The position numbers and the translations under genes are program-made. Shown here in pieces: positions 1,263 to 62,171 of a stretch of DNA of 64,000 bases. The DNA comes from Gemmatimonadaceae bacterium (GTDB lineage: Bacteria > Gemmatimonadota > Gemmatimonadetes > Gemmatimonadales > Gemmatimonadaceae): NCBI GenBank assembly GCA_025934775.1, contig JAICWO010000012.1, positions 62,001 to 126,000 of the forward strand, written 5' to 3'. The notes beneath the pieces are model-generated. The model searched no databases. It saw nothing but the letters and a program-made list of their open reading frames with translations, and was not told the DNA's origin. Numbering within the stretch: the first letter of the stretch is position 1; each line of letters begins with the position of its first letter.

Positions 1263-1429
1263 GGTGGCTTGAGGAAGGGTGAAGTGAAAGTGCCCGGCTC
1301 CGGCCGGGGGCGCTAGCCGGCCGCGGGTGATCTGCGGGTGATCCGCGGGAGCCGTGCTGGGAGCTCCCCTTGCCACCAGCCTCCCGGGGGCCATGATATA
1401 GCCAAACCGAAACTCCCCCCGGAGGCTGC

Positions 1430-2737
1430 ATGTCGCCCGACGTCCGCACGTCTACGCACGGCCCTCTCACGCCCGCGAACGCTTTCCTCAATAACGAAGA
1501 AACGCTCCGCAAGGCATTCGACGCCGAGTACGCGTCCTCGATCGAGAACGCGCGCGCGCAGCTCGGCGACGCGCAGGTGTTGGCGCCGCGCGTCGTCGAA
1601 ACGGCGTTCATCAACGTCTGGCAGCAGCGCGCAACGATCGCCACGCACGACCAGTTCAAGAAGGTGCTCCAGGACGAGGTGCACCACGGGGCCGCGCGCG
1701 CGTTGAGCCGCCGCGCCGCCGCGCAGCGCTTCAACAGCGGCGGCCGCGATGATCGCACCATGACCGGCACGCATCAGGCGTCCGGCGAAGCGACGGCCGA
1801 ACAGTCGTGGTCGCAGATCACCCGCACGATTCGCGGGGAAGGGCACACGGCCGACGCGCACAAGGAGGCGGCTACCACGTCGCGGCGCGAAGCGGTCGCG
1901 CACATGAAGGGCGTCGCGAAAGGACGCAGTTGGACCGTTCCGATTCTCATCGGCATCATCGCGCTCGCGTTGTCCATCGGCGGCGTGATCTACGTCGACC
2001 GCCTCGGCGAAGACGACGCGGTGTACGCGGCGGTGAGCAACCCGAACCTCCAGCCCATACAGACCAGTCCCGGGCAGCTCGGGAACACGAGCCTCGGCGA
2101 CGGCACGAAGACGCGCATCGGACCGGCGACGAAGCTGCTGATCGCCGATCACTTCGGGACGCAGATCCGCGCCCTCAAGGTCGAGGGGACGGCGCAGTTC
2201 GACGTCGCCAAGAACGAGAAGCTGCCGTTCCGCGTCGTCGCGTACCGCACGCACATCATCGCGACCGGCACCAGTTTCGCCGTGTCCACGTTCGGACCGG
2301 AGAGCACCGTCGCCGTAACGGTGAAGGAGGGGACCGTGCTCGTGAAAGACGGCAAGCAGTCGAGCACCGTCAACGCGAATCAAACCGTCATCGCCGACCA
2401 TTCCGGCATCCGCCCGGCGACCGCCGACGAGCAGGCGTCGTATTTCGGCTGGCTCGGCGGAACGGTCGGCGCCAAGGGCCGGCTGCGCGACGTCGTCGAC
2501 GCACTCGATCGATGGTTTGGTGCCGATGCAAAACTTCCGGATTTGAAACTCATCGATCGCCAGGCTTCATTCCAGACGTCGCTGGATTCCATGCAGACGG
2601 CCGTGGCGCAGATCGAGCAGAGCGCGAACGTCCACTACGTCAACGCCGGCGCCGAAAACGTGTTCGAGGACGCAGCGGGAGCCAAGGCGGCTGCCGCGCC
2701 CGCGGCCAGGAAGCCCGCGGGAAAGAAAAAGAAGTAG
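1430..2737 (+). CDS. Membrane-anchored FecR-domain protein with N-terminal sigma-70 region 2-like domain
   Basis: A 435-residue protein. Residues about 27-100 read like ECF sigma-factor region 2 (FDAEYASSIENARAQLGD, then VVETAFINVWQQR, FKKVL and a closing RR cluster), but no region 4 follows. A polar linker leads to one transmembrane helix at about 169-189. The periplasmic part has a FecR domain at about 215-320 (DGTKTRIGPATKL, VEGTAQFDVA, FRVVAYRTHIIATGTSFAV, VTVKEGTV) and a DUF4974-like tail, ending in a Lys-rich stretch. Classical FecR proteins carry an anti-sigma region at this position, so a degenerate sigma domain is unusual. An SD (GGAGG) lies 6 nt before the ATG. The role as a sigma mimic or trapped sigma factor is inference. 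Confidence 0.8.
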   Translation: MSPDVRTSTHGPLTPANAFLNNEETLRKAFDAEYASSIENARAQLGDAQVLAPRVVETAFINVWQQRATIATHDQFKKVLQDEVHHGAARALSRRAAAQRFNSGGRDDRTMTGTHQASGEATAEQSWSQITRTIRGEGHTADAHKEAATTSRREAVAHMKGVAKGRSWTVPILIGIIALALSIGGVIYVDRLGEDDAVYAAVSNPNLQPIQTSPGQLGNTSLGDGTKTRIGPATKLLIADHFGTQIRALKVEGTAQFDVAKNEKLPFRVVAYRTHIIATGTSFAVSTFGPESTVAVTVKEGTVLVKDGKQSSTVNANQTVIADHSGIRPATADEQASYFGWLGGTVGAKGRLRDVVDALDRWFGADAKLPDLKLIDRQASFQTSLDSMQTAVAQIEQSANVHYVNAGAENVFEDAAGAKAAAAPAARKPAGKKKK

Positions 2738-2764: not shown

Positions 2765-3250
2765 ATGCGCCGTCTCGTTCCCACGCTGGTGATGTCCCTT
2801 GCGCTCGCCGTGCCGGCGGCCGCGCAGCAGAGCCACCCGGACTTCAGCGGCGACTGGACGCTCGACGCCGCCCATAGCGAGCTGCCGCCGATGGGCGCGC
2901 CGCCGTCGATGACGATGCACGTCGCCCAGACGGACAAGGCCCTCACGATGCAGCGCGCCGTCCAGTCGGAGCAGATGGGCAACTCGAACAACACCATGAC
3001 CTTCGCGCTCGATACCAGCACTTCCAAGAACAGCATGAGCTCGCAGGGCATGACGCTCGAGATGAACTCCAAGACCTCGTGGGCGAGCGACACCCTCGTC
3101 GTCACCACCACGGCCGACGCCGGCGGGCAGACGATCTCCCAGACGGACCGGTGGGCGTTCAGCCCGGACAAGAAGCTCCTCGTCATCGCCACGGAATTCA
3201 GCGTCGCCGGGCAGTCGGCATCGTACAAGCTGGCGTTCGCCAAGAAGTAG
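2765..3250 (+). CDS. Secreted hypothetical protein
   Basis: 161 residues with a clear signal peptide (MRRLVPTLVMSLALAVPAAAQQ). The mature part starts with the FSGDWTLDAAHSE pattern seen in many uncharacterised secreted proteins of Acidobacteria and Gemmatimonadota, followed by alternating beta-type sequence (MTMHVAQTDKALTMQR, DTLVVTTTAD, TDRWAFSPDKKLLVI). This suggests a small beta-barrel or lipocalin-like fold, but I do not recognise a function. The start has an SD (GGAG) 7 nt upstream. It follows the FecR-domain gene by 27 nt and is closed by a strong terminator. Confidence 0.75.
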   Translation: MRRLVPTLVMSLALAVPAAAQQSHPDFSGDWTLDAAHSELPPMGAPPSMTMHVAQTDKALTMQRAVQSEQMGNSNNTMTFALDTSTSKNSMSSQGMTLEMNSKTSWASDTLVVTTTADAGGQTISQTDRWAFSPDKKLLVIATEFSVAGQSASYKLAFAKK

Positions 3251-61878: not shown

Positions 61879-62171
61879 GCGACGACGGCACGCCGCACGA
61901 CGCGGCCGAGGAGCTCGCCCGCTGTCGAGCGGAGATCGAGCGCGTCGACAACGAGATCGTGCGCCTGCTCGCGCACCGGGTCGCGCTCGGCAAGCGCACG
62001 GGCGAGCTCAAACGAACCGCCGGCATGCCGATTCTCGATCCGACGCGCGAGGCGGCGGTGATCCGCCGCGTCGCGAACGTCGCACGGGACGCGGGACTGC
62101 CGCCGGAGCTGGTCCGCGAAGTCTTCTGGCAGATCGTGGGGATGTCGCGGCGCGTGCAGGAGACCGAATGA
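61875..62171 (+). CDS. Chorismate mutase (AroQ-type)
   Basis: 98 residues from a GTG start overlapping the DAHP synthase stop (GTGA). The helical AroQ fold has [33 protein letters not shown] and a final [17 protein letters not shown]; the Arg, Lys and Glu positions that bind chorismate are recognisable (R and K of the first helix). It turns chorismate into prephenate. The stop overlaps the start of the dehydrogenase gene (ATGA), so all three are translated together. Confidence 0.9.

Follow-up and report, generated by a model that had tools for sequence, protein, structure and literature searches.

What does a protein do that carries part of an ECF sigma factor and a FecR-type anti-sigma membrane protein in one chain? 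The gene that raises this question lies in a window of 64,000 nucleotides (positions 62,001 to 126,000 of contig JAICWO010000012.1 from a Gemmatimonadaceae bacterium), which is the whole stretch of DNA analyzed here. The first-pass annotation, made from the sequence alone, had offered two readings of it: an ECF gene and its fecR partner had fused and the sigma part had decayed, or a membrane-bound sigma mimic controls RNA polymerase or another sigma factor. According to our analysis the inner end of the fusion is probably a decoy or a lock in gene control and not a working sigma factor, and control of another sigma/anti-sigma pair is the reading we prefer.

The domain anatomy of the protein, sigma2 followed by a transmembrane helix, FecR and FecR_C (Table 1), is well supported. 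In the single ORF, FecR was recognized as Pfam PF04773 (residues 210-303, E 8e-11), and the periplasmic pair of FecR and FecR_C/STN-like domains after one transmembrane helix is arranged as in FecR-type anti-sigma factors. A divergent alpha/beta hydrolase gene (Pfam Abhydrolase_1) occupies positions 177-1394 on the minus strand; translation of this gene probably begins at the ATG near 1262 and yields a signal peptide, in which case the two genes would share a short promoter region. A weak promoter-like match, TTGCCA-16-CATGAT, is present 5' of the fusion ORF at 1370-1397 on the plus strand (0.1 expected per shuffle). Just 3' of the fusion, positions 2765-3250 of the plus strand encode a protein of 161 aa that begins like a signal peptide and has no match in Pfam; two further genomes of the genus have related proteins behind their fusion genes.

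Table 1. Features of the fusion gene and its product (positions are those of the window, residues those of the encoded protein)
Feature	Position	Strand	Basis
Likely ribosome-binding site GGAGG, 4 bases 5' of the ATG at 1430	1421..1425	+	Read in sequence
Whole fusion ORF, 435 aa plus stop	1430..2737	+	ORF list; full-length homologues in 76 genomes
Sigma2-like domain (best conserved region), residues 22-101	1493..1732	+	Profile, conservation, structure model
Site equivalent to the beta'-clamp contacts 'DAED..Q[ED]' of ECFs (residues 51-58), reading LAPRVVET in the fusion, with substitutions of the acidic residues and Gln	1580..1603	+	ECF alignment
Variable linker, residues 102-122	1733..1795	+	Low conservation, low pLDDT
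Helix (residues 123-135) that matches helix 4 of the anti-sigma domain in FecR proteins	1796..1834	+	hhalign collinear with FecR proteins; AF2 helix 123-134, pLDDT block mean 92-94
Juxtamembrane helix, residues 141-164, family motif sRHxAAxHi	1850..1921	+	AF2 model and family alignment
Single transmembrane helix, about residues 167-190	1928..1999	+	Hydrophobic stretch; AF2 helix 169-202
Periplasmic FecR domain, residues 204-330 (Pfam 210-303)	2039..2419	+	Pfam, Foldseek
Periplasmic FecR_C / STN-like domain, residues 331-415	2420..2674	+	PF16344 in 25/30 homologues; Foldseek 4m0h, PupR 6ovk

The first-pass annotation had seen a resemblance to ECF region 2 in the N-terminal 100 or so residues and had named structure or profile comparison among the ways to check it. 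Taken by itself, the single sequence provides weak evidence (NCBIfam TIGR02985, residues 31-109, E 0.009). The same NCBIfam model matches 26 of 30 homologues (best 2e-7), and Pfam Sigma70_r2 matches six of the 30. Profile-profile comparison with ECF sigma factors gave a probability of 96-97% and E-values of 1e-9 to 7e-12 over about residues 1-101, as opposed to a probability of 2% when the N-terminal profile was compared with FecR proteins. The N-terminal 166 residues were modelled by AlphaFold2 with a pLDDT of 94-97 at residues 21-100. Aligned by VIA-align with region 2 of E. coli sigmaE, this model reached a Z of 10.2 (rmsd 2.4 A, 83 residues); the first 16 rows were all sigma factors and the best unrelated row had a Z of 6.0, but helical bundles can score high Z from a shared arrangement alone and it is therefore the agreement with the sequence profiles that carries the sigma2 claim. 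Foldseek with the full model was dominated by FecR, so that the N-terminal model was needed; since the E-values obtained with the latter were weak (best 0.14), the structural part of the claim is based jointly on the VIA-align ranking and the sequence profiles. By profile and predicted structure, the sigma2 fold of the N-terminus is thus confirmed, and the outcome that the first-pass annotation would have taken as a refutation, a predicted structure lacking this fold, did not arise. Chance resemblance to sigma2 was ruled out by profile, structure and family evidence.

The same annotation had reported that region 4 is absent and that a transmembrane helix and a FecR domain follow, and both statements were borne out. 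Pfam gave no match to sigma4, and the gap of about 65 residues between sigma2 and the transmembrane helix is filled by one linker and two helices. This middle region was also considered as a degenerate sigma4 and rejected, as it gave no match to the ECF profile. A complete sigma factor (sigma2 plus sigma4) in one chain, as in IutY-type hybrids, was not found in the fusion, nor did Pfam detect in it the receiver domain and sigma4-like part of PhyR-type mimics.

The fusion is widespread within one family. A 30-member profile found full-length matches in 76 of 395 genomes of the phylum, belonging to 22 genera (a manual count from the match table), plus two that are split across contigs. All of these, the two split ones included, fall within Gemmatimonadaceae; elsewhere in the phylum the profile matches only the TM-FecR part of ordinary FecR proteins. 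A scan of genome contigs with the single protein as query gave no match. In a second collection, searched with a narrower alignment, the relatives with a name belong to Gemmatimonadaceae, among them Roseisolibacter sp. H3M3-2. Genuine ECF sigma genes from other phyla were picked up by the N-terminal part in this search as well, and in Spirosoma the matching loci consist of an ECF gene with a separate fecR gene behind it, an arrangement that should be what the unfused state looks like. In a tree of the TM-FecR-C part, the fusions form one clade (100/99) apart from ordinary FecR proteins and the fusion, as judged from these sequences, would therefore most simply have arisen once. Five proteins from five genomes of one genus contain neither sigma2 nor the helix-4 motif described below and consist of a short N-terminal stretch, the transmembrane helix, FecR and the C-terminal domain. 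They nest inside the fusion clade and represent one secondary loss, so that the periplasmic part can persist without the mimic. Among the fusions, sigma2 is the most conserved domain, with a mean pairwise identity of 0.42 compared to 0.37 for FecR and 0.39 for the C-terminal domain. Seven pairs of relatives, a part of them near saturation at silent sites, gave dN/dS values of 0.09-0.25 for this domain.

In ECF sigma factors, the contact of the acidic DAED motif with the beta' clamp is reported to be essential for holoenzyme formation (PMC8103513). We aligned 46 fusions with 36 ECFs plus RpoE and FecI from E. coli (38 in all). Position 54 (RpoE D48) is D or E in 38/38 ECFs, whereas it is R or K in 43/46 fusions and acidic in none of the 46. 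Gln-57 (RpoE Q51) is retained in three of the 46 fusions, six clamp positions together carry a net charge of -3.2 in the ECFs versus +0.3 in the fusions, and W/Y-79 and N-86 of regions 2.3/2.4 are changed as well. Given the loss of the clamp-binding charges, sequence conservation identifies the domain as a pseudo-sigma2 rather than a sigma factor. A membrane-bound sigma mimic, the second of the two original readings, is in its general form what fits best; its variant in which RNA polymerase is controlled is unlikely because the acidic and Gln residues of the clamp motif have been lost family-wide.

Ordinary FecR proteins of the phylum mostly possess an N-terminal anti-sigma stretch, followed by a DvDxAW helix before the transmembrane helix. 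The fusions retain a DvDxAW-type motif at residues 123-135, collinear with the transmembrane helix and FecR in hhalign comparisons, and W127 is kept in 43 of 46 of them. On its own, the mid-region yields an E-value of 0.008 and a probability of 5% against FecR proteins, the motif being short and convincing only within the collinear TM-FecR alignment. Regulators of the FecR / PupR / BDI_1681 type share the transmembrane helix, the FecR domain, the STN-like C-terminal domain and probably the helix-4 motif with the fusion. Where ordinary FecRs of the phylum have anti-sigma helices 1-3, however, the fusion has sigma2; these helices were not found by the N-terminal profile comparison with FecR proteins mentioned above. 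Class I anti-sigma factors bind sigma4 through helices 1-3 and regions 2.1/2.2 of sigma2, the clamp-binding face, through helix 4 (PMC7406223). In the fusion, sigma4 is accordingly absent along with the helices expected to hold it, and sigma2 is present along with its presumed holding helix. FecR-type anti-sigmas (AS243) misalign with other class I groups (PMC7406223). Ten helix-4-contact positions, taken from solved ECF complexes (PMC7406223), exceed the remaining sigma2 positions in conservation among the fusions (p 0.011), an excess not seen among ECFs (p 0.37); when fusions and ECFs are compared directly, the difference reaches no more than p 0.056. Directly before the transmembrane helix lies the juxtamembrane motif sRHxAAxHi (window 1880-1912, residues 151-161), with H153 present in 38/46 and H158 in 45/46 fusions. 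A similar His motif in this place persists in the relatives without sigma2 and is not evident in ordinary FecRs of the phylum.

We tentatively put forward, rating its chances a little below even, that the membrane-anchored pseudo-sigma2, docked on its own anti-sigma helix, is a sensor-controlled sigma mimic directed toward anti-sigma factors. A FecI-type ECF sigma gene and the fecR gene belonging to it would have been joined in a forerunner of the Gemmatimonadaceae, giving rise to a single-pass inner-membrane regulator. At rest, helix 4 would dock in cis on sigma2. A pseudo-sigma2 locked in this manner needs a putative release step in order to function as a decoy: a periplasmic signal may be sensed by FecR/FecR_C, upon which sigma2 is exposed or released, probably through proteolysis within the membrane, as in the case of IutY and FecR. 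IutY becomes active upon cleavage by Prc and RseP (PMC5411451; PMC8999054). By attaching to helix 4 in one or several further anti-sigma factors, the freed sigma2 could liberate the sigma factors that these hold, so that the overall process would resemble a PhyR-like partner switch driven from the membrane. In PhyR, which acts in the general stress response of Alphaproteobacteria, the sigma fold is kept, the contacts to RNA polymerase and promoter are degenerate and the anti-sigma factor is titrated (PMC8103513). The sigma-like fold with degenerate polymerase contacts is common to both proteins; however, PhyR mimics a whole ECF factor and is a response regulator switched by phosphorylation, whereas the fusion comprises only sigma2, is membrane-bound and carries a FecR sensor. 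The preferential conservation of the helix-4 contact positions supports the mimic; the lack of a conserved neighbour that might encode a binding partner (40 loci compared), the shortness of the helix-4 motif and the sigma2-less relatives, in which the periplasmic part is retained alone, count against it. Somewhat more doubtful is the full proposal, according to which Gemmatimonadaceae widely possess a membrane-anchored sigma2 mimic that is under the control of a periplasmic sensor of the FecR type and titrates other anti-sigma factors.

The main rival to this proposal is a purely cis-acting scaffold, in which the pseudo-sigma2 permanently holds its own helix 4 and the juxtamembrane helix and the output is a different one (e.g. 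via the His-rich motif), with no contact to sigma or anti-sigma factors in trans. The preferential conservation of the helix-4 contact surface agrees with such a scaffold, as does the survival of the His motif even where sigma2 is gone. Furthermore, three fusions of one genus have lost W127 (V/M/V) together with P53 and Glu-57, and the sigma2-less relatives are also devoid of the helix-4 motif, both as expected of a cis pair. The three W127-less proteins form one clade and thus stand for one coupled event, so that the coupled losses amount to two evolutionary events only. The output, moreover, is hypothetical, and the scaffold explains less well why the whole of sigma2 is the best conserved part. 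We therefore consider it unlikely, albeit the strongest of the alternatives.

The remaining explanations fare much worse. One of them is that the protein tethers RNA polymerase to the membrane or inhibits it there, with sigma2 occupying the beta' clamp in competition with sigma factors. The fold, shared with the principal domain by which sigma factors bind the core enzyme, speaks for such a role, but the family-wide charge reversal in the acidic clamp motif renders it improbable. Slightly less credible still is a hybrid of the IutY type, from which proteolysis frees a transcriptionally active sigma fragment. IutY from Pseudomonas putida (an ECF243 hybrid serving aerobactin cell-surface signalling) likewise unites a sigma part, one transmembrane helix and a FecR-type periplasmic part in one chain and in the same order. 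It possesses, however, an active sigma domain and the cognate TonB receptor IutA, while the fusion lacks sigma4, has R/K in place of the clamp contacts and replacements of the W/Y and N of regions 2.3/2.4, and is not accompanied by a conserved neighbour such as a TonB receptor. In fact, no neighbour is kept across genera in 40 extended loci, and an ECF gene or STN-TonB receptor neither adjoins the fusion gene in the window nor is conserved beside it in these 40 loci. Several ordinary FecRs of the phylum, in contrast, are located close upstream of an STN-bearing ORF, some of them immediately before it. Dependence on an STN TonB transducer was likewise considered and discarded, as several fusion-bearing genomes gave no STN match at E 1e-3, a domain so short that it can be missed. 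The host genome of 4.9 Mb contains 39 Sigma70_r2 matches and only two FecR matches.

Just as little probability attaches to a split sigma factor in the manner of SigO-RsoA, for which the fusion would provide sigma2 and a separate protein sigma4. A sigma2-only subunit has a precedent in RsoA from Bacillus subtilis (PMC8103513), which is without sigma4 like the fusion but works with SigO in transcription; the clamp contacts of the fusion are lost. Moreover, none of nine sigma4-type matches without a Sigma70_r2 mate in this one genome, judged by reading, was a convincing sigma4-only partner: four are response regulators carrying an HTH of the LuxR/NarL type, another two are LuxR-type proteins of other kinds and three are apparently complete divergent sigma factors. 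Least probable of all is a decaying remnant of an ECF-fecR fusion, as originally suggested. The fusion event and the loss of sigma4 are real and one lineage has even shed sigma2 entirely, but decay is refuted for the family as a whole by 76 genomes from 22 genera, a single origin and a sigma2 that is the best conserved domain and under purifying selection.

Searches of the open-access literature (Sigma70_r2 with FecR; Gemmatimonas with FecR) revealed no description of a sigma2-FecR architecture. The actinobacterial groups ECF48/52/53 and ECF36 resemble the fusion in that a sigma factor is joined to transmembrane regulatory parts; they are reported, however, to be ECF sigma factors whose extensions are of the ZAS-like or DUF2275 type instead of FecR. 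Sigma/anti-sigma fusions in the membrane have so far been regarded as sigma factors, and the mimic known to date, PhyR, is a response regulator that is driven by phosphorylation. If the preferred reading, control of another sigma/anti-sigma pair, is correct, a conserved sigma2-only fusion with charge-changed polymerase contacts would be a case in which a piece of a sigma factor is used as a regulatory docking module, and sigma-factor mimicry would be driven from the envelope instead of by phosphorylation. About 79% of the ECF sigma factors in the phylum are reportedly associated with class I anti-sigmas (PMC7406223), and the fusion would add a further layer of control there.
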